Source of the DNA: Emticicia aquatilis
Lineage (GTDB): Bacteria; Bacteroidota; Bacteroidia; Cytophagales; Spirosomataceae
Assembly: GCF_014644295.1 (NCBI RefSeq)
Contig: NZ_BMKK01000004.1
Span: 310,001 to 374,000 of the forward strand
Reading direction: 5' to 3'
Length of the DNA: 64,000 bases
The notes below the pieces were generated by a model. It was not told the DNA's origin and did no database searches. It saw nothing but the letters and a program-made list of their open reading frames with translations. Shown piece after piece: positions 44,587 to 60,052 of the stretch. The translations under genes and the position numbers were made by a program. Positions within the stretch are counted from its first letter, which is position 1. Every line of letters starts with the position of its first letter.

Positions 44587-45312
44587 TTACTTCAAATCTT
44601 TCAAAGATATTCCAAGCATGATTTCAAGTTGATAATAAAGTTTTTCGTAGGTTGTGCTTGCTTGCTCAAACTCAGCGAAAGCATTTGAAGCCAGTTCGGT
44701 AATGCGTCCGAGTTCTGAAATATGAAGCTGACCTTGTTGAAACTCTTTCTCTGCCATTTCTTTTTGCAAGAAAAGTGCGTATTTCTTTTCCGCCTTGATA
44801 CTCAATAACTTATAAGCCAATTGTGCGTCTTTGTAAATATCCGTGATTCTGAATTTCACATCTTGACTCAAAAATTTTGAATGCTGCTCAGAAGCTGCTT
44901 GGCGATACTGTGCTTGTTTGATGAGGTCTTTACGAGCCATAATATCATACAAACTCACTCTAACGGTAAGACCTAAACGAAATGAGTTCATGGTTTGAAA
45001 ACTCAAAGAATTAAACTCAGAAGTAGAAATACTATTGTTTACGTTTAAGATAGCTCCGTTATTTGAGCGTTGCCCACCCATATCAACAAAAACTTTATCC
45101 ATCCAAAGTTTTTGAGCTACTTTCACTGATTGTTCGTAGTGTTGGCTCAGAGCATCTTGCTCTTTTACTAAATGAGAATTATGTTCGGCGTAATCCAAAA
45201 CTTTTTCAAGAGTTGGTAGTTCTTTCACAGTAGGCTTAATGTCTTTCTTTGCTTGGGCATTTATTTGGAAGTATGCCAAAACCATTATTAGTAAGCAAAT
45301 ATTTTTTTTCAT
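44587..45312 (-). CDS. Half-length TolC-family outer-membrane protein
   Basis: 241 aa; the signal peptide is MKKNICLLIMVLAYFQINAQ. The TolC-like helical hairpin reads LPTLEKVLDYAEHNSHLVKEQ near the N-terminus, SEFNSLSFQTMNSFRLGLTVRVSLYDIMARKDLI and a long heptad region to the end. TolC proteins are about 430 aa with two such repeats; this is one repeat, so a hexamer might replace the normal trimer, or it may be a periplasmic adaptor. It is the first gene of the leftward exopolysaccharide run and has the conserved palindromic promoter. Confidence 0.78.
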   Translation of the reverse strand: MKKNICLLIMVLAYFQINAQAKKDIKPTVKELPTLEKVLDYAEHNSHLVKEQDALSQHYEQSVKVAQKLWMDKVFVDMGGQRSNNGAILNVNNSISTSEFNSLSFQTMNSFRLGLTVRVSLYDIMARKDLIKQAQYRQAASEQHSKFLSQDVKFRITDIYKDAQLAYKLLSIKAEKKYALFLQKEMAEKEFQQGQLHISELGRITELASNAFAEFEQASTTYEKLYYQLEIMLGISLKDLK

Positions 45313-45341: not shown

Positions 45342-45438
45342 TACCATTAGTGTGCCACTCCGAAATTAAAAACATAAACACCTTATAATCAATAACTTAC
45401 AAAAATACCAATGCAACAATAAATTCCAAATTATGGAA
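45342..45438 (-). promoter_or_regulatory. Conserved palindrome plus -24/-12-like promoter, TolC-like/Wzc unit
   Basis: Read leftward: the palindrome TTCCA-N5-TGGAA (45424-45438), then the 28-nt block (45372-45399, CATAA edge nearest the gene), then TGGCACACTAATGGTA (45342-45357), which resembles a sigma54 -24 element with a poor -12. The palindrome centre is 74 bp from the -24 T, and the -24 T is 45 bp from the start codon. Confidence 0.72.
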
Positions 45439-45452
45439 ATGAAATATTTTTT

Positions 45453-45470
45453 TGGAAAGTTAAAGTTCCA
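45453..45470 (+). promoter_or_regulatory. Second TGGAA/TTCCA inverted repeat near the H-NOX gene
   Basis: TGGAA-N8-TTCCA (45453-45457 and 45466-45470) lies 15 bp right of the shared palindrome and 62 bp before the H-NOX ATG. A TAATTTTG box at 45495-45502 fits the Bacteroidota -7 consensus TAnnTTTG, but no good -33 partner is seen. This may be the rightward promoter region. Confidence 0.4.
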
Positions 45471-45531
45471 TTAAAATTTCGCACGATTTTTGCTTAATTT
45501 TGGTACAACCGTTTTTCTAAATCCTAAGCTC

Positions 45532-46071
45532 ATGAAAGGAATAGTTTTCACAGAATTTATCGACATGGCAGAGTCTAAGTTTGGTTTTGATATTGTAGAT
45601 GATGTCATAGAATCAGCCAATCTTCCATCTGGTGGAATTTACACAGCAGTTGGAACTTATGACCATTCAGAAATGATTCAATTGGTGGTCGGACTCAGTC
45701 AACGGACCCAAATACCTGTAAGTAGTTTGCTAAAAATATATGGAAAACACCTGTTTGGTGTTTTAATGAATAGCTATGCTCATTTTTTTCCGAATATAAA
45801 AAGTGCATTTGACCTCTTTGAGCAGATTGACACACACATACACGTTGAGGTGCTGAAACTATATCCCGATGCCGAACTTCCTAAATTTGATACCCAACGT
45901 ATTGATTCAAATACTATTGAAATGCTCTATCAATCAGAAAGAAAAATGGCAGATTTTGCCGATGGATTAATCGAAGCGGCTCTCGAATACTACAATGAAA
46001 CGGCAAATGTTCAGATTGTAAACTTAAATGATAGTGGTTCTTTAGTAAAATTTATTATCAGTAGAGCATGA
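45532..46071 (+). CDS. H-NOX (haem nitric oxide/oxygen-binding) sensor
   Basis: 180 aa from ATG 45532; an upstream in-frame start at 45490 gives an atypical leader. The haem-NO-binding fold begins MKGIVFTEFIDMAESKFG. The proximal His is probably H104 in THIHVEVLKLYPDAELP. The porphyrin-propionate motif YxSxR is Y133-x-S135-x-R137. Facultative-aerobe H-NOX proteins bind NO tightly. The next gene overlaps by 4 bp and encodes a hybrid histidine kinase, the classic H-NOX partner. No transmembrane segment, so it is cytosolic. Confidence 0.93.
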   Translation: MKGIVFTEFIDMAESKFGFDIVDDVIESANLPSGGIYTAVGTYDHSEMIQLVVGLSQRTQIPVSSLLKIYGKHLFGVLMNSYAHFFPNIKSAFDLFEQIDTHIHVEVLKLYPDAELPKFDTQRIDSNTIEMLYQSERKMADFADGLIEAALEYYNETANVQIVNLNDSGSLVKFIISRA

Positions 46072-48212
46072 GTGAGGAAGTAGAAGTACTGAAACGAAAA
46101 ATTGAGCGAGAAAAAAAAGCACGTCAGCAAGCCGAAAAGCTGTTGGAAGCAAAGGCTTTGGACTTATACCGTGCTAACGAAAACCTCAAAAAACTTAATG
46201 AATCGCTTGAAAGACAAGTAAAAGAACGCACCGAAGCACTTCAATACAGCGAAGAAAAATACCGTGGTATTATTGAAAACATGGATTTGGGCTTAATCGA
46301 AGTTGATAATGATGACATTATCCGAAAAGCCTACAAACGTTTTTGCGAACTAACTGGCTATGAAGAAAATGAACTAATTGGCCAAAAAGCTGCCGATATT
46401 CTCCTACCCGATGAAGATTTTAGAAGAGTAATTGCCGAACAAAATAATAATAGAAAAGAGAAAGAAACGGGAGTATATGAAGTTCCGCTAAAAAAGAAGA
46501 ACGGAGAAGTAATCTGGGTAATCATCAGTGGAGCTCCAATCATTGAAAGCAACGGTAAAGTAACGGGTTCGGTAGGTATTCACTTAGATATTACTGACCG
46601 TAAGCGTACTCAAGAAGCACTCGAAGAGGCTCGACAAGTAGCAGAAGATGCCCGTAGAGCCGAAAAACGTTTTTTGGCAAACATGAGTCACGAGATTCGT
46701 ACACCAATCAATGCAATCATCGGTATGACTCACTTGCTTTATGATACAAATCCTAACAAAAAACAGGTTGAGTATCTGAGTGCCATCAATTATTCAGCCG
46801 ATTTATTGCTCAATTTGGTTTCTGATGTACTCGATATTTCAAAAATCGAGGCAGGAGAAATGAGGATTTCAGAGCAAACATTCAGCCTTAAAGACCTTAT
46901 AAATAGCACTTTGCAAACATTTAGGTTAAGGCTACAAGGAAAAGATGTAAAACTTGTTTTAGAATTTGATGAAGAAATAGAAAATGATGTAATCGGAGAT
47001 TCCACGTTCTTGACACAAATCTTGATGAACCTTTTGAGTAATGCAGTGAAGTTTACTGAAAAAGGGCAAATTGGTGTTCAAGTGTCGCTCCTATGTAGGC
47101 TCGGAGATTTCTTGATGACTGAAATTAAAGTTTTTGATACAGGAATCGGTATCAGTCCACAAAGCTTAGGCAGAATTTTCGATAGTTTCAAACAAGCCGA
47201 CCAAGATGTAAAAGTTAAATATGGTGGAACTGGCCTCGGACTGGCTATTGTGAAGCAGTTGGTAAACCTTCATGGTGGAGAAATTTCGGCAGAAAGTACG
47301 CTTCACGAAGGAACAACATTTACTTTTACGCTACCACTCAAGGACAGCAAACAACAATCTAAGAAACTACATTCGCTTTCAGAATCAATATCGGAAGATT
47401 GGAAAAACTATCATGTTTTGGTTGTGGAAGATAATCTCATCAACCAAAAATATGTAGAAGGGCTTTTATTGAAATGGCAGATGAGTTATAAAATTGCCAA
47501 TCAAGGTCTTGAAGCATTAGATTTCCTCCAAAAAGAAGATTTTGACATTATTTTGATGGATATTCGTATGCCCGAAATGGACGGCTATGAAACGACCATC
47601 GCAATCAGAAAACTCGAAGGCAATGCCAATCAGTTTATTCCAATCGTAGCACTTACGGCCTCGGCAATGAGCGACGAAATCGATTATGCCTTTGAAATTG
47701 GCATGAATTCGTATCTAACAAAGCCGTTTACTCCTGACCAGCTTCGTGAGATTTTAGAACAAAAACTCACGCTAAATCCAAATCGACAAGTCGAAGTTCA
47801 AGAAAAAAATACAACAACAGTATCTGATACTGTAATTGTTGAGGAAGCTGAAAAAGCAGATGAAATAGAGACACTCCAAGCTGACTACTTATCGAAGATA
47901 TATGGTAACGACCGTAAATATGCAGTCGATATGTTTGGTCTTTTTCTGAAAACTGTACCAAGTCAATTTGCCCTACTGAAACCATTGATAGACGAACAAA
48001 AAGTTATTGAAATCGGTAAGTTGGCTCACCAACTCAAACCATCTTTCACGATGGTAGGTTTGCCAGAAATCACGCAAAATCTTCAAATCTTAGAAAAAAT
48101 GGCAAAAAACAATGAAGATTTTGAAACAATCAAGCAAACATTCGACGAAATTGAAAAAACGTTTAATCGAAAAATTGGTTTGGTTGAGAAAGAATTTGAT
48201 ATTTTAAAATAA
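46068..48212 (+). CDS. H-NOX-associated hybrid histidine kinase (PAS-HK-REC-HPt)
   Basis: 714 aa, no transmembrane helix. Coiled coil 1-58; PAS about 60-178; HisKA with SHEIRTP (phospho-His H208); HATPase with NLLSNAVKF (N-box), DTGIGIS (G1) and GGTGLGLAI (G2); REC about 448-570 with acceptor D498 and K552; C-terminal HPt with HQLKPS (H654). It is translationally coupled to H-NOX (ATGA overlap), so NO-bound H-NOX probably controls its autophosphorylation, as in other H-NOX/kinase pairs. The HPt would pass phosphate to a separate regulator; candidates here are the NtrC-like protein at 60053 and the REC-fused transferase at 58721. Confidence 0.92.
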   Translation: MSEEVEVLKRKIEREKKARQQAEKLLEAKALDLYRANENLKKLNESLERQVKERTEALQYSEEKYRGIIENMDLGLIEVDNDDIIRKAYKRFCELTGYEENELIGQKAADILLPDEDFRRVIAEQNNNRKEKETGVYEVPLKKKNGEVIWVIISGAPIIESNGKVTGSVGIHLDITDRKRTQEALEEARQVAEDARRAEKRFLANMSHEIRTPINAIIGMTHLLYDTNPNKKQVEYLSAINYSADLLLNLVSDVLDISKIEAGEMRISEQTFSLKDLINSTLQTFRLRLQGKDVKLVLEFDEEIENDVIGDSTFLTQILMNLLSNAVKFTEKGQIGVQVSLLCRLGDFLMTEIKVFDTGIGISPQSLGRIFDSFKQADQDVKVKYGGTGLGLAIVKQLVNLHGGEISAESTLHEGTTFTFTLPLKDSKQQSKKLHSLSESISEDWKNYHVLVVEDNLINQKYVEGLLLKWQMSYKIANQGLEALDFLQKEDFDIILMDIRMPEMDGYETTIAIRKLEGNANQFIPIVALTASAMSDEIDYAFEIGMNSYLTKPFTPDQLREILEQKLTLNPNRQVEVQEKNTTTVSDTVIVEEAEKADEIETLQADYLSKIYGNDRKYAVDMFGLFLKTVPSQFALLKPLIDEQKVIEIGKLAHQLKPSFTMVGLPEITQNLQILEKMAKNNEDFETIKQTFDEIEKTFNRKIGLVEKEFDILK

Positions 48213-48242
48213 AAAAAACGCCCAAAATTTCGGGCGTTTTTT
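48213..48242. terminator. Bidirectional intrinsic terminator
   Basis: The stem AAAAAACGCCC/GGGCGTTTTTT (48213-48223 and 48232-48242, 11 bp) has an 8-nt loop. It lies between the converging kinase and LruC genes. Confidence 0.92.
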
Positions 48243-48247
48243 AAGAT

Positions 48248-50305
48248 TTATTTCGTATAAATATTTGCTTTACTTCTATATCCAGTCTTATCTAAGTACC
48301 AATCTGCGTACTGCGTTCCGCCACTTTCGGCCCATTTACTGAACATTAAATGCCCTTTCAAAATCTCTTGTTTCTCATAAGGATAATCAAAACTTACTGG
48401 CACTTGAATCGCCCACGGTAGGTTTTTCCAGTTTTTGTAGTAAGTATTTTTTGCAGGATTCGAGCGGTCATGCGATGTACCAAAGAGTTTAGCATCAGCC
48501 TTATCTGTTGGAGCATAATTTGGTAAGTGAATTTCTTTGCCACGCTCATAATTTACCACTAAAAATGGATTATAAGGTGCTGTACCGAGCTTGCTTGATG
48601 CGATTGGTGAAGCAAACTCTATTGCAACATTAAGTGTATCTCCTTTTGAATATGGCTGTCCTTCAACTGTATTAACAAAATCAGCACCTACCCTTCTAAT
48701 CTGATTGAAAGCATCATCAAAAATCATAATTACTGCATTTGACTGCTCAGCTTCTGTGCCATTTGCCAAAGTCTTGATATAACCATTTTTTAAAGATTGT
48801 CCACTTACTTTCTTGATAGCTGATGGCTCAATCGGTAACTGAATTCCCCAACCATTTTTCAAAGATGCACCAACTGCCCTTACAACCGTTCTTACTTTTA
48901 CATCAACCACTTGATTATTCGCATTATAAACTTCTTGTACTTGATAATCTAAGACCAAATCATTGAAATCATAATCTCCTTTCGATGGCCATAAATCTTC
49001 ATAAGCTAATGAAGCAAAAGTAGTTTTTGAAGGTGTATATGATGTAAATGCACGATTTGGGTCATTCGGGAATTCATCACGGGTATCGCCCACACCATCG
49101 CCATCAGAGTCTTTGAATGTATCCATTTTTGGAATTGCAGGGTTTTCGATAGCTTTTACAGGATTCGATGTCACGAAGAAAACTGCATCATTAAAATCGT
49201 TATCACAACCAATTGGCTTGTTTTCACGGCTAACATCCTCAACTGCCAATAACATACGATTCGATTTTGAGTCATCTAATAGCACAAAGTGTCTTCTTAA
49301 ATCTGCATTTGATTCTGTATTAAGATTTGAATGACTGAAATGTGGATAATATGCACTTCCAACCTTACCATCTTTAAAAGCATTTGCCAATAAAACGAAA
49401 CCAATTCCAGTACCTGTATCAAAGGTTCCTATCTTCACTTTATTACCAGCCACAAGTCCACCGCCGCTTCCTGAGTACGATACATTCGGAAATACCATCG
49501 TTAGGTTTTTCAAATCATCAACTTTTTGTGGAGGATTTTTAGGGTCGAATGTATAAAAACCAAGAGAGTTTAACCAGCCAGCACCTTCATGAACGAAGGT
49601 AATCCAAACATCAGCTTTTTCTGTAATTATCAAAGTTGTTGGTTTATCGTTTTTCAAGTAATCAGGATGGCTTGAAGTTAAGGGCTTACTTTCTGGCAAA
49701 CTGGCAGTAATATCTTGCATAAACTCAGAAGTAATACTCTCATTGACTGGCTCTAAGTATTTCGGAACGCCAGCCGTATTCCAACTTCCTAAAGTCTTGA
49801 AGTCTGGCAAACCATTCGATTGTTCAGAATAAATCTCACGAGCATTATCACTGTTCGAATCCTCAACAAACATATTTGTCGCTGGCACACTTCCACCAAT
49901 TTGAAATGTTGCTTTGTTGTTTTGAATATTAACAGTAAGACTATTTGGAACACCAATAATATCAGTTTTGAATGATATTTGTTTGATATGATTTCCAAGT
50001 TCTTTGGTAAATTCCAGCATACCATTTTGGTTTGTCATACCCGAGAAGATAACCTCGCCATTTGGCTCGGTAACAATCGAAAACGGAATCGATTTGAGTG
50101 GCTTATCTTGGCCATTGAAAATCGAAACTTTGATTGCAACTTTCTCTGAGGTTTTGAAATTAAAATCAGGAGAAATGTTTAAGTTTTCAATAGCGGCCGC
50201 AGAGGTGTTTGCAGAAGTATTGTCTTTCATTAATATTTCTTCTCCATTCGGAAGACATGAAGTAAGAAGGAAAGCGGCACTGATAAATAAAATTATTTTT
50301 TTCAT
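48248..50305 (-). CDS. LruC-domain lipoprotein
   Basis: 685 aa. The signal peptide ends in lipobox LTSC (Cys near residue 17). The N-terminal Ig-like region (about 45-145) has a FQIGGSVPATN linker. The middle region resembles a large beta domain. DSDGDGVGDTRDEFPNDPN is a thrombospondin type-3 calcium motif at about 400-418. The LruC/DUF4842 domain then has DYDFNDLVLDY. An earlier DNDFNDAVFF is a related element (about 373-382). These proteins are surface-exposed in Bacteroidota; the exact role is unknown. It is transcribed alone from the shared palindromic promoter, so it may be co-regulated with exopolysaccharide genes. Confidence 0.87.
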   Translation of the reverse strand: MKKIILFISAAFLLTSCLPNGEEILMKDNTSANTSAAAIENLNISPDFNFKTSEKVAIKVSIFNGQDKPLKSIPFSIVTEPNGEVIFSGMTNQNGMLEFTKELGNHIKQISFKTDIIGVPNSLTVNIQNNKATFQIGGSVPATNMFVEDSNSDNAREIYSEQSNGLPDFKTLGSWNTAGVPKYLEPVNESITSEFMQDITASLPESKPLTSSHPDYLKNDKPTTLIITEKADVWITFVHEGAGWLNSLGFYTFDPKNPPQKVDDLKNLTMVFPNVSYSGSGGGLVAGNKVKIGTFDTGTGIGFVLLANAFKDGKVGSAYYPHFSHSNLNTESNADLRRHFVLLDDSKSNRMLLAVEDVSRENKPIGCDNDFNDAVFFVTSNPVKAIENPAIPKMDTFKDSDGDGVGDTRDEFPNDPNRAFTSYTPSKTTFASLAYEDLWPSKGDYDFNDLVLDYQVQEVYNANNQVVDVKVRTVVRAVGASLKNGWGIQLPIEPSAIKKVSGQSLKNGYIKTLANGTEAEQSNAVIMIFDDAFNQIRRVGADFVNTVEGQPYSKGDTLNVAIEFASPIASSKLGTAPYNPFLVVNYERGKEIHLPNYAPTDKADAKLFGTSHDRSNPAKNTYYKNWKNLPWAIQVPVSFDYPYEKQEILKGHLMFSKWAESGGTQYADWYLDKTGYRSKANIYTK

Positions 50306-50339
50306 TGAATTTTTGATGATTAAAGTTTAATCATATTAA

Positions 50340-50436
50340 TTCAATTGTTAGGCCAAGACAACAAAAAACTCATAACTCACTTATTATAAGCACTTTAAAT
50401 TCATGCCAATTTTTGAATTATTTCCATTTTTTGGAA
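50340..50436 (-). promoter_or_regulatory. Conserved palindrome plus -24/-12-like promoter, LruC gene
   Basis: Read leftward: palindrome TTCCA-N5-TGGAA (50422-50436), 28-nt block (50370-50397), then TGGCCTAACAATTGAA (50340-50355). The centre-to--24 distance is 74 bp, as at 45342, and the -24 T is 50 bp from the ATG at 50305. Confidence 0.78.
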
Positions 50437-50511
50437 AATAAACACACTAATGGAATAGAGTTAATATAATTTTTCATTTACGAATTCATAAAATAGGTAA
50501 TTCTCAAACGC

Positions 50512-50546
50512 AGAAGAGCCGCTGCATGCAACGGCTCTTCTTTTTT
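50512..50546. terminator. Hairpin between LruC and glycosyltransferase genes
   Basis: The stem AGAAGAGCCG/CGGCTCTTCT (50512-50521 and 50532-50541, 10 bp) has a 10-nt loop. The T-run is on the rightward side, yet the only transcript arriving here is leftward from the gene ending at 50573. It is probably that gene's terminator with an imperfect U-tract, or a symmetrical element. Confidence 0.65.
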
Positions 50547-50572
50547 ATATTAAATTGTAAGTCAATCAAAAA

Positions 50573-51457
50573 TTATTTAAAATTACCTTTCAAATTCCAT
50601 GAAAGTGCATCCCAATACATTCCTAAAAGTAAAAATTTGCGTTGAAACAAAAACTTCGTCAGGTCTCTTAAAGCAACAAATCCAAGATAAGTAAGCGACA
50701 TCCATTTGCCCAGCCCTTTACGCCATTTACGTGCCAATAAAATGCGGTTTCGGGTTTTGTAATAGACCTGAATTGCACTTTGTTTACCCACACTTATCGA
50801 CTCTTTATGAAGTACCAAAGATTGCGGTACGAAATAAATCTGATACCCCATTTCTTTGATTTTAAGACACCAATCAATCTCTTCGTAATATAAGAAAAAC
50901 TCTTCTGGCATCAATCCTACTTCTTTTAAAACTGAAGTTCTGACCATCATGGCAGCTCCGTGTGCCAAATTAGTTGGCTTAGTAGTATCATATTGACCTA
51001 AATCTTTTTCGCCATAGCCAACAGCAAAACTCTGAATCTTAAAAGGGTGTAAATCTGAAGAACCTGCATACTGAATGATATGTGGGTGATGAAAATAATG
51101 CAATTTTGAAGCACAAACGCCTACTTTTTCGTTGGTTTCCATTACCTCAACCAATGGTTCGAGAAAATCAGGACAAACTTCAGTATCATTATTTAAAAAC
51201 ATTAAATATTTGCCATTAGCTTGCGTTATTGCCAAGTTATTCCCTCCGGCAAAACCTAAGTTTTTCTTACTTTCAATGATATTTACATGGGGAAACAAGG
51301 CACTAACTTTGTTTTTAAGTGCCCCATCAGACTGGTTATCAACAACCCATACTTCAATATTTTTATATGAAATTTTATCCAGTGAAGCTAAAAGCTCACA
51401 GGTTACATCTGCTTGTCGATAATTAACCGTTATTATAGAAACGAGTGGTTGTTTCAT
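50573..51457 (-). CDS. Glycosyltransferase family 2
   Basis: 294 aa. The GT-A fold has SIITVNYRQADVTCELLASL, VVDNQSDG, NLGFAGGNNLAI and LMFLNNDTEV (DxD-like site), then EIDWCLKIKEMGY. It matches the rhamnosyltransferase-like branch of GT2. The start overlaps the upstream kinase gene by 4 bp, so it is the third gene of the FIST-kinase unit. That ties a saccharide-building enzyme directly to the sensor operon. Confidence 0.88.
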   Translation of the reverse strand: MKQPLVSIITVNYRQADVTCELLASLDKISYKNIEVWVVDNQSDGALKNKVSALFPHVNIIESKKNLGFAGGNNLAITQANGKYLMFLNNDTEVCPDFLEPLVEVMETNEKVGVCASKLHYFHHPHIIQYAGSSDLHPFKIQSFAVGYGEKDLGQYDTTKPTNLAHGAAMMVRTSVLKEVGLMPEEFFLYYEEIDWCLKIKEMGYQIYFVPQSLVLHKESISVGKQSAIQVYYKTRNRILLARKWRKGLGKWMSLTYLGFVALRDLTKFLFQRKFLLLGMYWDALSWNLKGNFK

Positions 51458-53889
51458 TGGTGTGATAATTGTATTTCGTCACAAACTCTCCTTAAAATTT
51501 CGGTCGTATATTTAATTAAAGGGGCAATTTCGGGCGATTCTTTTTCTTGCTTTCCAAGAGTCTCCAGTTGTCTGATTGGCTGCTTGAGTGGCGTAATCTG
51601 CAACATATCAATCGAAGCTTTGATTTTATGTGCCAAAAGCCCAATTTGCTTCCAATTTTGCTGTGTATATAGCTCACTAAATTGCTTCAGAGCATCTTCA
51701 GACTGCTGTACAAAAAGCGTTTCCATCTGACGAATCTGAACCGTATTGCCTTTCATCATTTGAGCTAAAAGTTGATTATTATAGAGCTTTTCCACTTCTT
51801 CAACTTTTACTTTCGGCGAACTTATCGAGTATGTTTGTGAGACAGATATATGTTTTATCAATTTTTGCATTAATTCATCAGCCACAAATGGTTTGGCGAT
51901 GTAATCATTCATACCAACTCTGCTAAAATGCTCAATTTCTTCATCAACCACGAGTGCAGTTAAGGCGATAATTGGCACTTTGGTACTTTCGGTACGAATA
52001 AGTTTTGTGGCTTGAAAACCGTCCATTTCTGGCATTTGAATATCCATCAAAATACCATCATAGTATTTTGCTCTGAACTTCTCAACTCCTTCTCTCCCAT
52101 TCTGAGCAATATCAACCTTCATTCCCCAGCCTTCGAGTAGCTTTTGGGCAAAAAACTGGTTCATTGCGTTATCTTCAACAAGTAATATTTTTTTACCTAT
52201 CAAAGTATTGCTCGAAAGATGATTTTGCTTGGCTTCTTCGATTGGCTCTTGGCTAATCGGGAAACCAACTACAAACGAAAATGTAGAGCCTTCGCCCAAT
52301 TCGCTTCTTACTCGGAGGTCGCCTCCCATTAATTCTACTAATTGCTTCGAGATACTTAACCCTAAGCCAGTACCACCGTATTTTCTACTAATACTCGAAT
52401 CTTCTTGTGTGAAGCTTTCAAAAATTAGTTTTTGTTTTTCGTTAGCTATTCCTTTCCCAGTATCAATCACGTTAAATTCTACCACAAGAGCGTTATTCAT
52501 TTTGGTAACAACACGAGCCTCGATAGTGATTTTTCCAGTATCGGTAAATTTAATGGCATTGCTTACCAAATTTAGTAGTACCTGACTCAGTCGAATTGAA
52601 TCGCCAAGAAGTGTAACATTGAGTTTTTCGTCAAACTTCAAAAATAGACCTATCCCTTTTTGTTCGGCCTTAAACTCATTACTACTGATGATATTTTGTA
52701 GAATTTTTTTGAGATTGAAAGGAATTTTCTGAAGCGACATTTTGCCTGCTTCAATCTTAGAAAAATCTAAAATCGAATTGATGATTCCTTGTAAGTTTTC
52801 GGCCGAAATTTGTACCGTACTGATATAATCTGATTGTAATGGACTAAGACTTGTTTTTTGAATTAAGTTAGTCATACCCATGATTGCGTTGAGCGGTGTA
52901 CGAATCTCGTGACTTACTACAGCCATAAATTCTTGCTTTACTCGGCTGGCTTCTTCGGCTTTTTCTTTAGCTTGTCGAAGTTCGGATTCGTAATTTTTTC
53001 GCTCAGTAATATCAGATTCTACTGCAATAAAATTAGTTAGTTTACCTTCTTCGTCAAAAATTGGCTGAATAGAGAGTTCAATCCAATATGGGGTACCTGT
53101 CTTAGAATAATTCAAAATTTCGGTTCTAAAACTATTTCTTTGGCGTAGCTGTTCACCTATAAACTTTTTGGTTTCTGGGTTTGTACCAGCCCCTTGTAAT
53201 ACTTCACCAGGAGTTTTACCCTTGACTTCATCCAAATGAAAACCCGAAACACGGCTAAAACCTTCGTTTACCCATTCGATACGACCTTTATTGTCGGAAA
53301 TTACGATGGCATTATCGGTTTTTTCGGCTACTACGGCGAGTTTTTTTAGTTCATCTTGGTATCCGATGACTTGATTGTGCAGAAGGCAAGATTGCAAAGT
53401 AACACCAAACTTACGTATTACTTTGCTTGCCTTTTTTACTTCACTTGAATCAAAAGCAACTTGAGAGAGGTTTTTTGGGCTAAAATAAAATTTTATAAAG
53501 CCCAACTGTGGCAAGGGAATAACCCAATAGCAGCCGTCAGTAATGTTTTTTTCGGTAATTATCTCTTGAAAATGGAGCGTATCGCTTTTTACGCATACGC
53601 CACCATTTCCTTCGAGATGACTCATAAAATAGTGGTTAAGTGTAATCTCCTTTTTGTCTGTACTAAACTCAGGATTGGCATAGATTAAAGTAAAATTTTC
53701 AGAATTTGGCAGGTCTAAAACTTTATTTTTAAGCCAAATCGAGCCAAAATCAATATTTTTCTGACGCATCCATACATTTAGAAAGTCAGCACAATTTTTT
53801 TTTAATTCTAATGAATTCCCTATCGAAAGCGATAATTCATACAGTAATGAAATTTCACGGGCAACATCAATTTTTATTCCTGCTTCCAT
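51454..53889 (-). CDS. FIST-associated hybrid histidine kinase (GAF-like, PAS, HK, REC, HPt)
   Basis: 811 aa, soluble. The N-terminal GAF-like region is about 10-170; PAS about 185-300; HisKA with SHEIRTP (H327); HATPase with NLVSNAIKF, DTGKGIA and GGTGLGLSI; REC about 565-680 with D616 and K666; HPt with HKIKAS (H754). The architecture is the same as the H-NOX partner kinase at 46068, with an added sensory domain. It begins at the base after the FIST gene's stop, so the two are translationally coupled. The FIST protein probably controls it. Its phosphate target is probably shared with the other kinase (inference). Confidence 0.91.
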   Translation of the reverse strand: MEAGIKIDVAREISLLYELSLSIGNSLELKKNCADFLNVWMRQKNIDFGSIWLKNKVLDLPNSENFTLIYANPEFSTDKKEITLNHYFMSHLEGNGGVCVKSDTLHFQEIITEKNITDGCYWVIPLPQLGFIKFYFSPKNLSQVAFDSSEVKKASKVIRKFGVTLQSCLLHNQVIGYQDELKKLAVVAEKTDNAIVISDNKGRIEWVNEGFSRVSGFHLDEVKGKTPGEVLQGAGTNPETKKFIGEQLRQRNSFRTEILNYSKTGTPYWIELSIQPIFDEEGKLTNFIAVESDITERKNYESELRQAKEKAEEASRVKQEFMAVVSHEIRTPLNAIMGMTNLIQKTSLSPLQSDYISTVQISAENLQGIINSILDFSKIEAGKMSLQKIPFNLKKILQNIISSNEFKAEQKGIGLFLKFDEKLNVTLLGDSIRLSQVLLNLVSNAIKFTDTGKITIEARVVTKMNNALVVEFNVIDTGKGIANEKQKLIFESFTQEDSSISRKYGGTGLGLSISKQLVELMGGDLRVRSELGEGSTFSFVVGFPISQEPIEEAKQNHLSSNTLIGKKILLVEDNAMNQFFAQKLLEGWGMKVDIAQNGREGVEKFRAKYYDGILMDIQMPEMDGFQATKLIRTESTKVPIIALTALVVDEEIEHFSRVGMNDYIAKPFVADELMQKLIKHISVSQTYSISSPKVKVEEVEKLYNNQLLAQMMKGNTVQIRQMETLFVQQSEDALKQFSELYTQQNWKQIGLLAHKIKASIDMLQITPLKQPIRQLETLGKQEKESPEIAPLIKYTTEILRRVCDEIQLSHQ

Positions 53890-54975
53890 TTAGTTGTAAA
53901 GGCTACTTGCTACAATTGTTTTATTGTAGAAATCTACAAATCCCATGCCTGATGATGCAATTTCGCCTAAAGTTGAAACTCCTCTTATCTTGCATGGTCT
54001 TCCAGCATGAACATCTCGCATTGCTTTTAGTTCATCTTCAAATTGATTATCCAGATACATTACACGAGTAATACAATCAAAAACCATTAAACAATTGACA
54101 TCGTCGTCATTGTGTAATGTCTGGGTAGCCACATCACGTGCTGCAAGAATTAGCTTTTCAGGGTCGCCAGTAAGGATTTGTAAAGTCGAGTTTTCGGGTA
54201 CTTCCGAAATACAAACGATTTCTCCTGCATCATTGATAGCAATCGGGTCTCTGACCACAAACTCAGCTCCTTCTTTATAAATACCAAATGGAAATATCTT
54301 AGCTATATCTATAAAATTATTTTCAGTAAATTTATTATCAGAATTGGCTTCTATTACTTCTTGATAAACCTCAAAAGCTGGTCGCCAATTAAGTTCTTTG
54401 ATGATGTTTTTTTCGGTAGAAGTGGCAATAAATGGCCCTGCAAAAACTTCCCAACCATGTTTCACACCAATCTTACTTTTATTGCTCATTAGTGCTAAAA
54501 TAGCACCGTCGTCGAACATTCCATCTTGTGTAAAAATACATGGTTGCTGTTCAAAACTCATAAATCCAGCCCCACCTCCTACAATATTGATTTGATTGTT
54601 GAGCAAGCCATAAACTTTTTTGAGCAGTAGGTCCGTCTCCGAAACCATTGCATCAATCAACAAAATGGCAGTATTGATTCCTTCGAGATTCTTTATTTCC
54701 TTGAAAGAAGCTTCATCTTTCATCGAAAACTTTACCACATCTTTTACATAAGGTACTTCAATCACTAACATTCCATCGTGGTAATTGACAGTATCATGAA
54801 TAATGGTTGGATAAATTCCTCCAAAAAATTTGATTCCATTGCTATTGAATAAATCAATCAGAGGAGTAGCATCTGAAGCAGACTTCTCAGCAATAAAAAC
54901 CAGTAAATAATTTTCACTCTTTTTAAGATTATCAATCTTATCTTGAGTTATTTCGGCTATGTTTTTAAAATACAT
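53890..54975 (-). CDS. FIST-domain (NosP-type) sensor protein
   Basis: 361 aa. The FIST N domain includes VGGGAGFMSFEQQPCIFTQDGMFDDGAILALM (split by function: GGGAGF turn and DDGAILA strand). The FIST C domain ends with GVSTLGEIASSGMGFVDFYNKTIVASSLY. FIST proteins of the NosP group bind haem and NO and regulate adjacent histidine kinases. The haem ligand cannot be picked out here. It is the first gene of a three-gene unit (FIST, hybrid kinase, GT2) driven by the shared promoter. NO sensing is inference from family and context, supported by the H-NOX system 8 kb away. Confidence 0.88.
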   Translation of the reverse strand: MYFKNIAEITQDKIDNLKKSENYLLVFIAEKSASDATPLIDLFNSNGIKFFGGIYPTIIHDTVNYHDGMLVIEVPYVKDVVKFSMKDEASFKEIKNLEGINTAILLIDAMVSETDLLLKKVYGLLNNQINIVGGGAGFMSFEQQPCIFTQDGMFDDGAILALMSNKSKIGVKHGWEVFAGPFIATSTEKNIIKELNWRPAFEVYQEVIEANSDNKFTENNFIDIAKIFPFGIYKEGAEFVVRDPIAINDAGEIVCISEVPENSTLQILTGDPEKLILAARDVATQTLHNDDDVNCLMVFDCITRVMYLDNQFEDELKAMRDVHAGRPCKIRGVSTLGEIASSGMGFVDFYNKTIVASSLYN

Positions 54976-55006
54976 TTTTGAGGGGGTTCACGTGTATAAA
55001 TTATAT

Positions 55007-55081
55007 TTCAGAAATCATACCAAATACATAAAACACTGATAATCAATCACATTCCATCTAACGATACTCCATAATGTGGAA
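55007..55081 (-). promoter_or_regulatory. Conserved palindrome plus -24/-12-like promoter, FIST-kinase unit
   Basis: Read leftward: palindrome CTCCA-N5-TGGAA (55067-55081), 28-nt block (55026-55053), then TGGTATGATTTCTGAA (55007-55022). Both spacers are about 10-11 bp shorter than in the other three copies (centre to -24 is 52 bp). That is one helical turn each, so rotational phase is kept. The -24 T is 47 bp from the ATG at 54975. Confidence 0.72.
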
Positions 55082-55157
55082 TTTTGTCTTTTATTTGGAA
55101 TAATTTATCGTTAAATTTAATATCACTTCACCCAATTGCAAACTGCAACACTCAATT

Positions 55158-56321
55158 TTATGCTCTCATTGCTTTTTCCCAAACTACGTTCTGCTGATTA
55201 TTTAAGAATCTTTTAAAACCAGCTAAAGCCGAATAATTCATCAATGAAAAATAGTACGGAACATATAGAATCTTGACTTTCTTACCAATTTTTTCGTAGT
55301 AAAACCCTAAAATCGCCATTGAGTAAAATAATATCTGAGCAGCAAATGACAGTAAGTAAAATTGGTTTTGCTCAATTAAAAAAGCATTAATTACCAAAAG
55401 CAATATCAAAGCAAAAGGCACAACTATCCACCTGAGTAAACGGTGTGATATATACTGAAAAGTCAAAAGACCATTTTTGAATGGATTTAGTAATCCAGTC
55501 AGTCTGAAAGTTGATTGAAAACCACCAGCACAAATTCTGATTTTACGTTTTAGCTCTTCAGCACTGTTTAATGAGGCTGTTTCGGTAGCGTAGGCATTTG
55601 GTTCGTAGGCAGTTACGTAACCTTTTTGGCATATTTTTAAGGAAAGCACGAAATCATCGAGTAATGTATCGGCTTCTAATTCTTCAAAAAGTTCGGTTCT
55701 AATAGCGTATAATTCGCCCGCAGCACCAACAGCTGAATAAAGCTCTGAATCAAGTTTTTTCAAGAAACTCTCATACTTCCAATAAATTCCTTCACCTACT
55801 TCGGCAGTTTGTCCAGTTATTTTCATGATACGCTTTTCACCTGCCACTACTCCCACTTTTTCATTAGAAAAATGATTTACAATTTCTCGCACTGATTCAG
55901 AATTTAGCATAGCGTTGGCATCCGAAAAAATCGTTATTGGCGAATCAATCAGTGGCATTACTCGGTTAATGGCTGCCATTTTCCCACTTCGTCCATCTTT
56001 ATGAAATAACTGAATATCAGCGTATTGCTTTATAATTTCGGCTGTTTTATCTGTTGAGCCATCGGTCACAAAAGCAATCTTTAGTTTGTCTTTGGGATAA
56101 TCTAATGCCAACGAATTTTTGATTTTATCTTCAATACAGTCTTGTTCGTTATAGGCTGCAATCAAAAGTGTTATATTTGGTAAGTAATTATCATTGAAAG
56201 TTTTTTCTTTAACGAATATTGACTTGATTTTAACCATCAACCAAATCAAAATTCCGTATCCGATATAGGCATAAAACGTAATGCCCAATAGCAGCCAAAA
56301 TATTATTTCTAAGATTTTCAT
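55158..56321 (-). CDS. Membrane glycosyltransferase family 2
   Basis: 387 aa. An N-terminal transmembrane helix (about 5-27) precedes the GT-A domain, with LLIAAYNEQDCIEDKI, FVTDGSTDKTAEII, FSDANAML and LLDDFVLSLKICQKGY. Three or four C-terminal helices (about 295-370) follow an RKIRICAGGFQ segment in the position of the QxxRW region. It resembles processive cellulose/hyaluronan-synthase-like enzymes, although the RW motif is altered. It is the last gene of the unit that starts at 59875. Confidence 0.86.
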   Translation of the reverse strand: MKILEIIFWLLLGITFYAYIGYGILIWLMVKIKSIFVKEKTFNDNYLPNITLLIAAYNEQDCIEDKIKNSLALDYPKDKLKIAFVTDGSTDKTAEIIKQYADIQLFHKDGRSGKMAAINRVMPLIDSPITIFSDANAMLNSESVREIVNHFSNEKVGVVAGEKRIMKITGQTAEVGEGIYWKYESFLKKLDSELYSAVGAAGELYAIRTELFEELEADTLLDDFVLSLKICQKGYVTAYEPNAYATETASLNSAEELKRKIRICAGGFQSTFRLTGLLNPFKNGLLTFQYISHRLLRWIVVPFALILLLVINAFLIEQNQFYLLSFAAQILFYSMAILGFYYEKIGKKVKILYVPYYFSLMNYSALAGFKRFLNNQQNVVWEKAMRA

Positions 56322-56345
56322 TGTAGAGTTGTTTATTTTTCGGTT

Positions 56346-57482
56346 TTAAGCAAGAGCTGCACTCAAAATATCATTATAAAGATTAATAGTTTTCTGGGCT
56401 GTGTTTTCCCACGAAAAAGCCATTGCACGATTTAACCCACTGTATTTCAGATGATTATATAATTTTTGGTTATCTAAAACCTTTTTGATAGTCTGAGCAA
56501 TGCCTTCAACATCAAATGGATTCACCAACATGGCCGCTTCATCGGCTACTTCGGGCATTGCACTTGTGTTTGAGGTTATGACTGGTGTTCCACAAGCCAT
56601 TGCTTCAATGATTGGAATACCAAAACTCTCTCTTAGTGACGGATACAAAAACAGTGTAGCCAAATTATAAATACATGGCAACTCCGAGTGCTGCACATAA
56701 CCTGTTAGAATAATTTTTTTGAAAATATCTTTGCGGTTGATTTCTATCAATAATTGCATCACGTCTTTTTCTGAACTTTCGGCAATCACTAAATTAATCG
56801 GAGTAAGGTTTTCGTCGGCATAAGCGGCATAAGCTTCTAATACTCGTTTCATGTTTTTCTTCGGAGCTTTGTTGCCCAAGAAGAAAATAAAATCATAAGG
56901 TAAATTGTATTTTTCTCTTACTTGCTCCAAAGCCACTTCATCTTCAATCATTCTAAAATTCTGATTATAAGCATTATAAATTGCTTTTAGTTTAGTGTAT
57001 TTTATGCCAAGTGATTTCTGAATTTGTATTTTTTCAAACTCCGATACTGTGAGTACGTATTCGGCTTTTGATGCAATTTTTGGCACATTCCATCGACGAT
57101 AAAAATGCCCTGCAACTTGATATAGCGAGCCTTTTGAAAATAATTTTTCCAAATAAATAATATCATGAAGCGTCAGGATAAACGGACATTTGATATTGAC
57201 CGAAGCCGTATTTGAGGTAAAGTGCATTAAATCAATTTTTTCTTGCTCAATGGCTTTCGGTAATGAAATTTGCTCCCAATCAACGTATGTTTTACCTTTT
57301 ACTTCTACTATTTTTAAATTTTGGCTTGGTTGTAAACAAACATCTTTATCTGGTTTCACAAAAACTACGTATTCGTTTTGCGTATCTAATTGCTGAATGG
57401 CTCTGATTAATTCGAGAGCATATATATCCATGCCGTGTTTCTTTGGGCGAAAAATTCTCTGTGCTTCGATGCCGATTTTCAT
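56346..57482 (-). CDS. Glycosyltransferase family 4 (GT-B)
   Basis: 378 aa from ATG 57482; an upstream TTG at 57503 would include codons made from a repeat hairpin, so I reject it. N-terminal IGIEAQRIFRPKKHGMDIYALELI; acceptor domain LTLHDIIYLEKLF; donor domain with LGNKAPKKNMKRVLEAY and ESFGIPIIEAMACGTPVITSN (the E-x7-E motif). It fits the mannosyl/glucosyltransferase GT4 group. It lies 24 bp upstream of the membrane GT2 gene and is part of the same leftward unit. Confidence 0.89.
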   Translation of the reverse strand: MKIGIEAQRIFRPKKHGMDIYALELIRAIQQLDTQNEYVVFVKPDKDVCLQPSQNLKIVEVKGKTYVDWEQISLPKAIEQEKIDLMHFTSNTASVNIKCPFILTLHDIIYLEKLFSKGSLYQVAGHFYRRWNVPKIASKAEYVLTVSEFEKIQIQKSLGIKYTKLKAIYNAYNQNFRMIEDEVALEQVREKYNLPYDFIFFLGNKAPKKNMKRVLEAYAAYADENLTPINLVIAESSEKDVMQLLIEINRKDIFKKIILTGYVQHSELPCIYNLATLFLYPSLRESFGIPIIEAMACGTPVITSNTSAMPEVADEAAMLVNPFDVEGIAQTIKKVLDNQKLYNHLKYSGLNRAMAFSWENTAQKTINLYNDILSAALA

Positions 57483-57490
57483 TATTGTAG

Positions 57491-57509
57491 GACAGGTTTT
57501 CAACCTGTC
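57491..57509. repeat. Short GACAGGTT hairpin repeat at a gene start
   Basis: GACAGGTT-TTC-AACCTGTC (57491-57509) is a perfect 8-bp hairpin just upstream of the GT4 start. The flanking TAGGACAGGTTTTCAACCTGTC pattern is, from memory, a common dispersed palindrome in Bacteroidota. It is in the leader between two coding regions of the same unit. Confidence 0.6.
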
Positions 57510-57523
57510 AAAATGTTAAATGA

Positions 57524-58672
57524 TTAAACCCCGTGAGGTGTATGCAAAAAAGTTTGTTTGGCTTTGCCGATTTTAAAAATCGCCTTTGTCATACTCAATA
57601 ATGCTTTGGGCAATTCCATAAAAATCGAAAAATTGATTTTTTTCAATAAGTAAATCGGTGTTGCCAACAAAAAACCTATCCAAAGAGCAATATTTAGTAA
57701 GAGTATTTCGGTGAAATAGAAATTGAATAAAACACTGATTATCAACATCAAAGCGAGCATTCCGAGTAAAATCAATCTTGGAGGCAACACAAATTGGATT
57801 ACTTTATTGAAGAAATCTACGTTTCCGTTTTTTACCAATTCTAACCACGCTTTTGCAAAATTTTGTTTCGCAAAATTCCATTGTGCAGCAATCCAACGTG
57901 TACGTTGCGTTTCAAATACTTGTGTATTCTTCACCTTTTCGTCCAAAACATAGGCATCTTGCATATACTCAATTTTGCGTTTATCATTCATAATATCCAA
58001 CTCCAATTGCTTATCAAAGCCGCTTACTACATCAATTTTATTGAGATAAACTCTAAACATTTCGTAGTCCATTACCAAACCTGAACCAATCAAAGCAGCC
58101 GAAAGGCCAACATTATAATGTCCCAAACGGAAAACCGAATTATTGATTTCTTCACTAATGGCATCTAACTTAGCCATCGGAGTATCAAGATTTTTGGCAA
58201 TACGGTGTGTCTGAATAATTTTGTTGCCAGCAGCAAACGAAGCTTTAGTTTTCGTAATAAAACCCTCAACTAAGTGATTATCAGCATCGAGCAATACAAC
58301 CGCATCGTGTTTCTTTCCCCACAAACCTAAAGCCTTCATTGCTCGGTTGATAGATTTTGCTTTTGTGCTTTTCTCAAAGAAAACTTCAATTACAGTTACT
58401 TTCAAAGTCTCTAATTCTTTGATAGTCTCTTTTTTCAATTGGTCAGCAATCACCACTACCTCATCGGTCATTCCGAAATCAGTTTGAGAAAGTACATTTT
58501 TTGCAGTTTCGATAATCACAGCATCTTCTTTATAAGCTGGAATCATGAATAAAAAATTTACATCTGAAATCTGATTTTGGGCTACAGCTTTGTTACGCTG
58601 AAACTTTGAAGCAATTGCAAAAAAGAGTACGTAAGCAACTGCAAATGTGAGATATATGATTAATGCTGTCAT
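57524..58672 (-). CDS. Processive-type glycosyltransferase family 2
   Basis: 382 aa. An N-terminal transmembrane helix covers about 2-20. The GT-A domain has MIPAYKEDAVIIETAKNVL, VVIADQLK and VVLLDADNHL (DxD). The QxxRW motif is present as QRTRWIAAQW, typical of cellulose-synthase-like enzymes. C-terminal membrane helices occupy about 290-360. It probably extends or starts the exopolysaccharide chain at the inner membrane. It lies between the GT4 gene and the REC-transferase gene in the same unit. Confidence 0.89.
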   Translation of the reverse strand: MTALIIYLTFAVAYVLFFAIASKFQRNKAVAQNQISDVNFLFMIPAYKEDAVIIETAKNVLSQTDFGMTDEVVVIADQLKKETIKELETLKVTVIEVFFEKSTKAKSINRAMKALGLWGKKHDAVVLLDADNHLVEGFITKTKASFAAGNKIIQTHRIAKNLDTPMAKLDAISEEINNSVFRLGHYNVGLSAALIGSGLVMDYEMFRVYLNKIDVVSGFDKQLELDIMNDKRKIEYMQDAYVLDEKVKNTQVFETQRTRWIAAQWNFAKQNFAKAWLELVKNGNVDFFNKVIQFVLPPRLILLGMLALMLIISVLFNFYFTEILLLNIALWIGFLLATPIYLLKKINFSIFMELPKALLSMTKAIFKIGKAKQTFLHTPHGV

Positions 58673-58720
58673 TGGAGTAAATTATTAAGAAAAGTTCTTT
58701 GAAATAGGTTGCTGAAAAAA

Positions 58721-59875
58721 TCACATTTTTTCAGATTGGAACAAAGCAGGAACTGTCTTGGCGATGAGAGTCAAATCAAATTTCCAATCGTGGCGATATG
58801 CGTATGTATTGTCTAACTCTTGGCGTTCTTTGGCTGATAATTCACCTTTTCCTCTTTTTGTTACTTGCCAAAGACCCGTCAGACCAGCAGGAGCTAAAAA
58901 TCTTGCTACCGATTCATCTTTTGTCAATTTCTCAGCTTCATATAATGGTAGTGGGCGATTCCCTACCAACGACATATCGCCTTTGATGATATTGATTAAT
59001 TGTGGAATTTCATCAATACTTGTGTTTCTCAAAAAAGCCCCCAACTTTGTGATTCTTGGGTCATTTTTAAATTTCAAAAAAGCTGATTTTTGATTTTGAG
59101 AGTCCAATAATTTATCTTCATTTTTCCAGCCCGAGTCATCAATCAAATTACCATCAGTTTCAAGATTTTCTTCTTGTTTTTCGGTTTCGTACATGTTCAA
59201 ATGAGCCATATTCTTGATTTCTTTTTCGGCTCCCGTACGCATTGTGCGAAACTTGTACAATTCAAAAACTTTGTAACCAGCCCCGATTCTCTTCGAGAAG
59301 AAAAATACGGGGCCTTTTGAGTCTAACTTAATTAAAATAGCAACTATCAGTAAAATTGGAGAAAGAACGAGTAATGCAGAACCTGCCACAATAATATCGA
59401 AAGCACGTTTGCGGAATGATGATTTTGGAGTCAGGAAACTTCCACCGTCCGAATCACTTTTGCGATTGCCTTCTAAATTTAGGCTAATTGAAGCCGCCGT
59501 TGCAGGTACAGAATTTAATTGTTTTTCAATACGAATCTGTAATTCTTCTGGGTGAAAAGGCTTCATCACATAATCATCAGCACCAAGTTTAAGGCACTCA
59601 ATTCGGCTTTGGCTTTTTTCTTCACCCGATAAAACAATTAATGGGGTATTAATATATAATGGATTGGTTTTCAAATAAGTAATAAATGATTTTCCATCTT
59701 CATCAGGCAAATTCAAATCTGTCACGATTGCATCTGGAAATAAACCGTCTTTAAGTAATACTTTTGCTTCACTTAGGCTTTGGCACAAGAAAAGTTCAAA
59801 TACTTCGCTATAGCAGTGATTCATTAAGCCTAAAAGCATTTCGTTATCGTCAATTATTAAGAGTTGTTTTTTCAT
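58721..59875 (-). CDS. Response-regulator receiver fused to phosphoglycosyl transferase
   Basis: 384 aa. The N-terminal REC domain (1-120) has acidic D10/D11, phospho-acceptor D53 in VTDLNLPDEDG, S83 and K105, all needed for phosphorylation. After a linker, the C-terminal monotopic phosphoglycosyl transferase (about 150-384) has a reentrant helix region FDIIVAGSALLVLSPILLIVAILIKLDSKG (split by function), YKFRTM, the catalytic pair in SIDEIPQL and LVGNRPLP. Such enzymes put the first sugar phosphate on undecaprenyl phosphate. The fusion suggests phosphorylation directly controls initiation. It starts the leftward unit from the promoter at 59911 and is divergent from the NtrC-like activator. 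Confidence 0.92.
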   Translation of the reverse strand: MKKQLLIIDDNEMLLGLMNHCYSEVFELFLCQSLSEAKVLLKDGLFPDAIVTDLNLPDEDGKSFITYLKTNPLYINTPLIVLSGEEKSQSRIECLKLGADDYVMKPFHPEELQIRIEKQLNSVPATAASISLNLEGNRKSDSDGGSFLTPKSSFRKRAFDIIVAGSALLVLSPILLIVAILIKLDSKGPVFFFSKRIGAGYKVFELYKFRTMRTGAEKEIKNMAHLNMYETEKQEENLETDGNLIDDSGWKNEDKLLDSQNQKSAFLKFKNDPRITKLGAFLRNTSIDEIPQLINIIKGDMSLVGNRPLPLYEAEKLTKDESVARFLAPAGLTGLWQVTKRGKGELSAKERQELDNTYAYRHDWKFDLTLIAKTVPALFQSEKM

Positions 59876-59910
59876 CGTGATTTCTATGTTTGTTATGATG
59901 GTTATTATAT

Positions 59911-60005
59911 TTCAATTCTTTTGCCAACTTTTAAAAATATCATAAACGGCTCATTATCAACAATTTACATTTTGGCATAAAATTTAAAATTTCCATTATT
60001 TGGAA
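59911..60005 (-). promoter_or_regulatory. Conserved palindrome plus -24/-12-like promoter, glycosyltransferase unit
   Basis: Read leftward: palindrome TTCCA-N5-TGGAA (59991-60005), 28-nt block (59940-59967), then TGGCAAAAGAATTGAA (59911-59926), the best sigma54-like match in the set. The centre-to--24 distance is 72 bp, and the -24 T is 51 bp from the ATG at 59875. The palindrome is only 48 bp from the ATG of the divergent NtrC-like gene, so it could also autoregulate that gene. Confidence 0.8.
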
Positions 60006-60052
60006 ATAAGAAATATTATATGGAAATTGGATAAAAATTGGATACATAAATA

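Follow-up and report, generated by a model that had tools for sequence, protein, structure and literature searches.

The window analysed here is a 64,000-nucleotide stretch of the 6.75 Mb genome of Emticicia aquatilis, a member of the Spirosomataceae in the Bacteroidota, and domain searches show that polysaccharide and signalling genes fill its positions 37.5-61.4 kb (Table 1). Four leftward transcription units in this region, referred to below by their first genes as OEP, lipoprotein, FIST and REC-PGT, are each preceded by a palindrome of the form TTCCA-N5-TGGAA and by a sigma54-like promoter core. Beside the last of these promoters, a rightward gene starting at 60053 encodes an NtrC-type response regulator, the proposed activator. 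The region is probably an exopolysaccharide locus of an Emticicia-like member of the Bacteroidota that is run as a single sigma54 regulon.

The original prediction for this DNA listed four palindrome copies. Those of the OEP, lipoprotein and REC-PGT promoters are exact, whereas the FIST copy, also read as exact in the prediction, carries one mismatch. Each of the four lies on the promoter side of its leftward gene, as had been claimed. Exact palindromes are expected 0.10 times in the window, and 0 of 100 shuffles reached four. An additional exact copy at 45623-45637, absent from the prediction, lies within the H-NOX coding sequence and is probably there by chance.

Promoters of the sigma54 type carry a GG-N10-GC core. 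Sigma54-like elements were located at the four predicted positions by scoring 17-mers, out of 17, against a consensus; picked cores (window and relatives) and shuffles alike had to contain the GG and the -12 G. The REC-PGT, lipoprotein, FIST and OEP cores score 14, 13, 13 and 12, with shuffle P values of 0.0006, 0.007, 0.011 and 0.048 (combined, 3e-6), and their first bases lie 52, 51, 48 and 46 bp before the start codon, respectively. The base following the -12 G is mostly A, with GT in the OEP core and GC only in the FIST promoter of genome G006. Measured offsets agree with the predicted distances of 74, 74, 52 and 72 bp between palindrome centre and -24 T in the OEP, lipoprotein, FIST and REC-PGT promoters.

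The palindrome and the core are accompanied by two further elements. A TTCCA half-site lies upstream of the palindrome in 4/4 of the window promoters and in 15/21 of all promoters compared. Between palindrome and core, 17 of the 21 spacers hold an IHF-like element, WATNARN4TTR, which is the IHF consensus (WATCARNNNNTTR) loosened at one base; the loose match of the G006 OEP promoter differs in offset from all others. The distances from palindrome to core fall at 42-43, 52-54, 62-65 and 74 bp, in steps of approximately one helical turn. The test of helical phasing gives R=0.85 at 10.5 bp (p ~8e-4, with n=10 promoters counted as distinct), and p 0.045 for the four window promoters alone.

Table 1. 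Genes and putative promoter elements of the locus, in window coordinates.
Feature	Position	Strand	Remark
Wzy_C (polymerase/ligase-type) membrane protein	37470..38933	-	
Polysacc_synt (Wzx-type) membrane protein	38899..40200	-	
Methyltransferase	40398..41156	-	
Group 1 glycosyltransferase	41189..42361	-	
Wzz/Wzc-like chain-length protein	42365..44542	-	score under Pfam cut-off
Outer-membrane efflux (TolC-like) protein	44587..45312	-	short: 241 aa, single OEP domain
Sigma54-like core, OEP promoter	45342..45358	-	GTGGCACACTAATGGTA; weak
IHF-like element, OEP promoter	45375..45387	-	WATNARN4TTR; also from alignment A1
Palindromic enhancer (putative), 5' of OEP/Wzc/GT run	45424..45438	-	exact TTCCA-N5-TGGAA
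Upstream TTCCA half-site, OEP promoter	45453..45457	-	19 bp from palindrome
H-NOX	45532..46071	+	PF07700; open reading frame itself begins 45490
Hybrid histidine kinase PAS-HisKA-HATPase-REC-Hpt	46068..48212	+	adjoins H-NOX
DUF4114 + LruC-domain (DUF4842) lipoprotein	48248..50305	-	candidate matrix/surface protein
Sigma54-like core, lipoprotein promoter	50340..50356	-	TTGGCCTAACAATTGAA
IHF-like element, lipoprotein promoter	50373..50385	-	
Palindromic enhancer (putative), 5' of LruC-domain lipoprotein	50422..50436	-	exact; kept in G004, G006, G035
Upstream TTCCA half-site, lipoprotein promoter	50451..50455	-	19 bp
GT2 glycosyltransferase	50573..51457	-	
Hybrid histidine kinase PAS-HisKA-HATPase-REC-Hpt	51454..53889	-	adjoins FIST
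FIST_N-FIST_C sensor	53890..54975	-	distant NosP relative
Sigma54-like core, FIST promoter	55007..55023	-	TTGGTATGATTTCTGAA
IHF-like element, FIST promoter	55029..55041	-	full match to IHF consensus
Palindromic enhancer (putative), 5' of FIST-HK-GT2	55067..55081	-	one mismatch
Upstream TTCCA half-site, FIST promoter	55096..55100	-	19 bp
GT2 glycosyltransferase	55158..56321	-	
Group 1 glycosyltransferase	56346..57503	-	
GT2 glycosyltransferase	57524..58672	-	EpsU similarity weak
REC-Bac_transf (REC-PGT)	58721..59875	-	fusion of a receiver and an initiating sugar transferase
Sigma54-like core, REC-PGT promoter	59911..59927	-	TTGGCAAAAGAATTGAA
IHF-like element, REC-PGT promoter	59943..59955	-	
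Palindromic enhancer (putative), between REC-PGT (leftward) and activator (rightward)	59991..60005	-	exact
Upstream TTCCA half-site, REC-PGT promoter	60021..60025	-	20 bp
NtrC-type response regulator, proposed activator	60053..61399	+	REC, sigma54-interaction AAA+ with GAFTGA, helix-turn-helix-like tail

A whole-genome motif scan, which the original prediction had suggested as a check, gave different answers for the palindrome and for the complete promoter. Since exact TTCCA-N5-TGGAA occurs 12 times in the genome versus 13 times in a reversed control, the palindrome alone is unenriched, and genome-wide enrichment was rejected as a line of evidence. Three of the 12 copies are window promoters lying outside open reading frames (ORFs) of at least 100 aa. 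The composite of a palindrome with relaxed outer bases and a core at the proper distance has 13 matches in the genome and 6 in the reversed control; the four outside ORFs are exactly the four window promoters, and nine lie within ORFs, including one (L069) whose only enclosing ORFs are 136 and 143 aa long. It is extremely improbable that the repeats are chance occurrences or non-functional leftovers of promoter copying. The absence of enrichment would fit such an origin, but the other nine exact genome palindromes sit inside ORFs, and across genomes the position of the palindrome, the spacing and the core are retained although much of the spacer has diverged.

A sequence-only profile, R1, was trained on 17 promoters, of which 15 come from the genus, and its E-values are rough. 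On the E. aquatilis genome it gives the four window promoters, which belong to its training set, 75.3, 63.4, 61.7 and 50.7 bits, and the next site 32.1 bits, out of 101 matches with E no higher than 10. This 32.1-bit site and several others that were examined look like sigma54 promoters that have another enhancer, and some other weak matches fall inside ORFs. Across 11 genomes of the genus, R1 finds 18 sites at E<1e-8, all of them in the five genomes (5/5) that encode a close orthologue of the activator (84-100% identity) and none in the six others (0/6; Fisher 0.002), whose best matches reach 20 to 31 bits. The sites number 4 in G000, 4 in G004, 5 in G006, 2 in G007 and 3 in G010, and all span most of R1. 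Fifteen of the 18 trained R1 and hence match by construction; of the three held out, G010 has two, one 5' of FIST and one beside H-NOX, and the third precedes a lipoprotein-like fragment in G006. Two of these three count as target promoters. The G006 fragment (L126:4683-5077), of 92 aa, has a full promoter of this kind to itself.

Individual sites can be followed between genomes. The OEP palindrome has counterparts in G004 and G006, and beside H-NOX in G010; sites equivalent to the FIST palindrome lie 5' of FIST in G004, G006, G007 and G010; and the REC-PGT palindrome is kept in G004, G006, G007, G010 and G035. In G035, which belongs to another genus of the same family, the sites precede REC-PGT and the lipoprotein. 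For the G007 REC promoter, these comparisons took the core ranked second (offset 63, score 12) over the best one (offset 14, score 13), and start codons were placed by eye for G004 REC-PGT, G006 OEP, G027 b and G007 13023. A wide palindrome-plus-core pattern returned mostly apparent chance matches among 58 relatives; in a sample of one locus per genome from 30 genomes, 4/31 matches (L111, L113, L119, L120) had the loosened IHF-like element. Taken together, the composites, the profile scores and the co-occurrence within the genus give good support to the predicted single sigma54 regulon with a locus-encoded NtrC-type activator.

The domains of the 60053 protein confirm that an NtrC-family activator with GAFTGA is encoded beside the last promoter. 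GAFTGA, REC and AAA+ are present, and the C-terminal helix-turn-helix, which has no Pfam match, was read from sequence. With this architecture the protein resembles the NtrC-type group I enhancer-binding proteins, and it falls under the cut-off of the NCBIfam NtrC model (389.4 bits, cut-off 558.6). Membership of the PEP-CTERM/PrsR regulators was ruled out by score (TIGR02915, 357.1 bits, cut-off 502.6). By this protein, the closest named records are metagenome-assembled genomes, with 98% identity for Emticicia sp., 95% for Cytophagaceae and 93% for Spirosomataceae, and the activator is found at E<1e-140 in 25 of 395 sampled genomes of the phylum. As the prediction required of the genome, rpoN is present, in two copies (C5:536389 and C1:927828). 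A second rpoN dedicated to the regulon is ruled out, because at least two matches occur in 8/11 genus genomes, with or without the activator (a third in G006 is a fragment).

Two sensor genes, for H-NOX and FIST, adjoin hybrid kinase genes in the window. H-NOX proteins are marked by a proximal haem histidine and a Y-x-S-x-R motif. The window protein (PF07700, 138.6 bits) keeps His104, Y133, S135 and R137 and aligns end to end with solved H-NOX proteins. Within the genus, H-NOX is found in the same 5/11 genomes as the activator and in 0/6 of the others. FIST proteins of a low-scoring type occur in the activator-bearing genomes, and those of a high-scoring type also occur in genomes without it. 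At the level of loci, with the window's own excluded, FIST lies within ~1.5 kb of the activator in 10/27 and H-NOX in 2/27. Neither sensor lies near paralogues of 37-43% identity (0/12 loci vs 12/27 orthologue loci; Fisher 0.004, a test that treats related rows as independent, although several of the 27 loci come from close relatives and three genomes contribute two loci each). In a tree of 42 activators (42/55 rows kept, with 5/12 paralogue controls), the five kept paralogues split off with support of 100/100, and a single clade of 18 rows (100/98) has H-NOX neighbours interspersed with FIST neighbours. The H-NOX and FIST sensors, each beside a hybrid kinase, are the probable input of the regulon. 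The original prediction of a self-contained regulon stands as to the regulon itself, but calling it self-contained is incomplete, since the prediction missed the H-NOX and its kinase, the half-site, the IHF-like elements and the probable nitric oxide input.

Several observations weigh against this reading of the locus, beginning with the promoters. The OEP core is weak, and among 52 regions upstream of ATG-started ORFs in the window, three non-target starts score equally high: 14 at 53889, inside the unit of FIST and its kinase, and 12 at both 38933 and 32969. Taken by itself, the OEP core is thus unexceptional. The invariance of GG and the -12 G in alignment A1 arises by construction, because both were required when cores were picked. 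The loosened IHF-like motif occurs in 4/4 window spacers (shuffle mean 0.27 of 4; 0/20000 as high), having been picked after the spacers were inspected, and the strict consensus is found in 1/4 of them and in 7/21 overall. At G010:C124 (L162), the promoter is kept beside an H-NOX match that holds one stop codon, and an OEP gene was not found within that locus, a state that is due to decay or assembly error.

The distant orthologues of the activator also count on this side, since the palindrome is found near a minority of them. It occurs exactly at 2/38 and with up to one mismatch at 7/38 loci (shuffle means 0.04 and 0.8; 38/46 loci counted, the left-out L085 having an exact palindrome upstream), and the idea that it is general to all distant orthologues is unsupported. 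The other 31/38, which have no palindrome within 350 bp upstream, and the presence of other NtrC-type regulators in the genome could mean that the palindrome serves a different DNA-binding protein, such as a repressor or another enhancer-binding protein, and that 60053 controls other targets. This is quite unlikely, given that the palindrome-promoter sites appear and vanish with 60053 across the genus. Moreover, among dyads with gaps of 2 to 8 upstream of distant orthologues (31/35 loci used), gap 5 occurs in 6/31 loci and the other gaps in 0 or 1, and another response regulator of the genus adjoins a different enhancer. The C-terminal helix is similar in the distant orthologues. In G027 two palindromes with 20 bp between them come after the activator, and then H-NOX and an HNOBA-PAS protein that is cut by the end of the stretch, with no kinase domain seen in the part present; in G029 two palindromes and FIST come after it; and both genomes have glycosyltransferase genes on the activator's other side. 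At L204, two exact palindromes precede a distant activator of the same class, from another family, that adjoins FIST. We infer that the 60053 protein is the factor that binds the palindrome.

The remaining points against concern the sensors. The FIST protein lies far under the cut-off of the NosP model NF041558 (28.7 bits, cut-off 450), and NosP membership was rejected on this score. The adjacent kinase scores 182.7 bits against the near_NosP_CTERM model (cut-off 400), and of ten other activator-linked FIST proteins, eight score 33.5 to 58.3 bits against NosP and two have no match. No relative of the FIST protein was found among solved structures at E up to 1, and the sequence lends weak support to nitric oxide sensing by it. 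Outside the genus, H-NOX and FIST follow the activator only loosely: among the 58 relatives, with presence of the activator taken as 45% identity or more, H-NOX occurs in 10/17 genomes with the activator vs 8/41 without (p 0.005), and FIST in 10/17 vs 16/41 (p 0.25). The low FIST scores and the failure of FIST to track the activator would suit a real regulon whose signal is not nitric oxide, with H-NOX and FIST reading oxygen, redox state or a small metabolite, or fine-tuning another kinase. Such an input is unlikely, as the H-NOX has the conserved residues and full-length alignment described above, and H-NOX and FIST swap beside members of a single activator clade, which would be expected of two sensors sharing one signal.

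The different enhancer mentioned above belongs to a second sigma54 regulon, which has an enhancer like TGTCCG-N4-CGGACA, an IHF-like element and a -24/-12 core. Its sites are L134 (C5:206208 of the E. aquatilis genome), L135 (C5:171498), L155-L157, L164 and L173, and it adjoins another response regulator at L134, L157 and L173. Its targets, named from sequence, are exporter-adaptor-like and ABC-permease-like genes. Separately, L139 (C1:248246) has a sigma54-like promoter with an IHF-like element downstream of a paralogue of the activator, followed by genes that we take to be kdpF/kdpA from their appearance. Because the second regulon in the genus repeats the layout of the first around an enhancer of its own, this layout may help in reading other regulons. 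A recent survey of sigma54 regulons reports that sigma54 targets COG0577 permeases in Bacteroidia, in agreement with the second regulon; the available excerpts of that survey contain no mention of exopolysaccharide, IHF or Emticicia (PMC12316311).

The closest parallel in function is the syp system of Vibrio fischeri, according to the available portions of the reports on it. There, the sigma54 response regulator SypG activates the sigma54-dependent promoters of a polysaccharide locus, an HnoX-controlled hybrid kinase feeds in, and control has a transcriptional branch through SypG and a post-transcriptional branch through SypE (PMC12369376, PMC10162802). The locus in E. aquatilis resembles syp in combining a proposed sigma54 activator for a polysaccharide locus, an H-NOX-linked hybrid kinase and what would be two control branches. 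However, the two differ in phylum and, compared by eye, in enhancer, the SypG site being TTCTCANNNTGMDWN (PMC10162802). In addition, the locus here has a FIST sensor, and its second branch would act through a receiver fused to a sugar transferase. Given the other enhancer, and parts that are not demonstrably homologous, the locus is not classed as a member of syp.

Other H-NOX and kinase systems, in Shewanella (HnoC) and Vibrio, have outputs through response regulators that influence biofilm, with HnoC repressing the hno regulon, and the nitric oxide biofilm pathways covered in the available text of one review are all from Proteobacteria (PMC8738867). In contrast, the system here is in Bacteroidota, and its output would be a sigma54 activator that switches on polysaccharide genes. 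The pairing of a FIST_N-FIST_C protein with a hybrid kinase recalls NosP/NahK, although both proteins are below the curated cut-offs. Titles and abstract openings in the literature gave no description of this system, in a search that left most subscription papers outside.

Overall, the locus quite likely represents a nitric-oxide-tuned sigma54 exopolysaccharide regulon that would work in a syp-like manner with different parts. In the proposed mechanism, phosphorylated 60053 would bind as dimers to TTCCA-N5-TGGAA and to the half-site about two helical turns upstream, and a bend at the IHF-like element between enhancer and promoter would carry it to sigma54-RNA polymerase at -24/-12. It would thereby fire the four leftward units, namely OEP/Wzc/GT/Wzx/Wzy, the LruC lipoprotein, FIST-kinase-GT2, and REC-PGT with its glycosyltransferases. 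Phosphate would be supplied by the two Hpt-bearing hybrid kinases, beside H-NOX and FIST, and a phosphorelay to the activator is plausible because both carry HisKA, REC and Hpt domains. By analogy with one known H-NOX/kinase pair, nitric oxide may lower kinase activity and switch slime production off, the sign of this effect being a guess.

The Hpt output may also set the receiver of REC-PGT, so that both transcription and enzyme activity would be controlled. Since this receiver keeps the phosphorylation residues (the DD, D53, S83 and K105 positions), the relay proposed for the activator could also gate the transfer of the first sugar. The fusion is present in G000, G004, G006 and G035; in G026 and G041, receiver and transferase are neighbouring separate genes (L064:10194-11825; L052:6451-8086).

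The locus offers a precise model for such control, with one palindrome, one activator, four promoters and two sensors. The fusion of receiver and transferase hints that phosphorylation directly controls the transfer of the first sugar. Since many Bacteroidota pair one activator clade with H-NOX or FIST, a broader output pathway for nitric oxide can be predicted. More tentatively, and with somewhat less confidence than an even chance, these proteins may form a Bacteroidota-wide class of sigma54 activators through which H-NOX and FIST, as gas sensors that can replace each other, act on transcription via hybrid kinases. In this genus the class would govern an exopolysaccharide regulon both at four sigma54 promoters that share one layout of enhancer, bend and core and, through the fused receiver domain, at the initiating sugar transferase.

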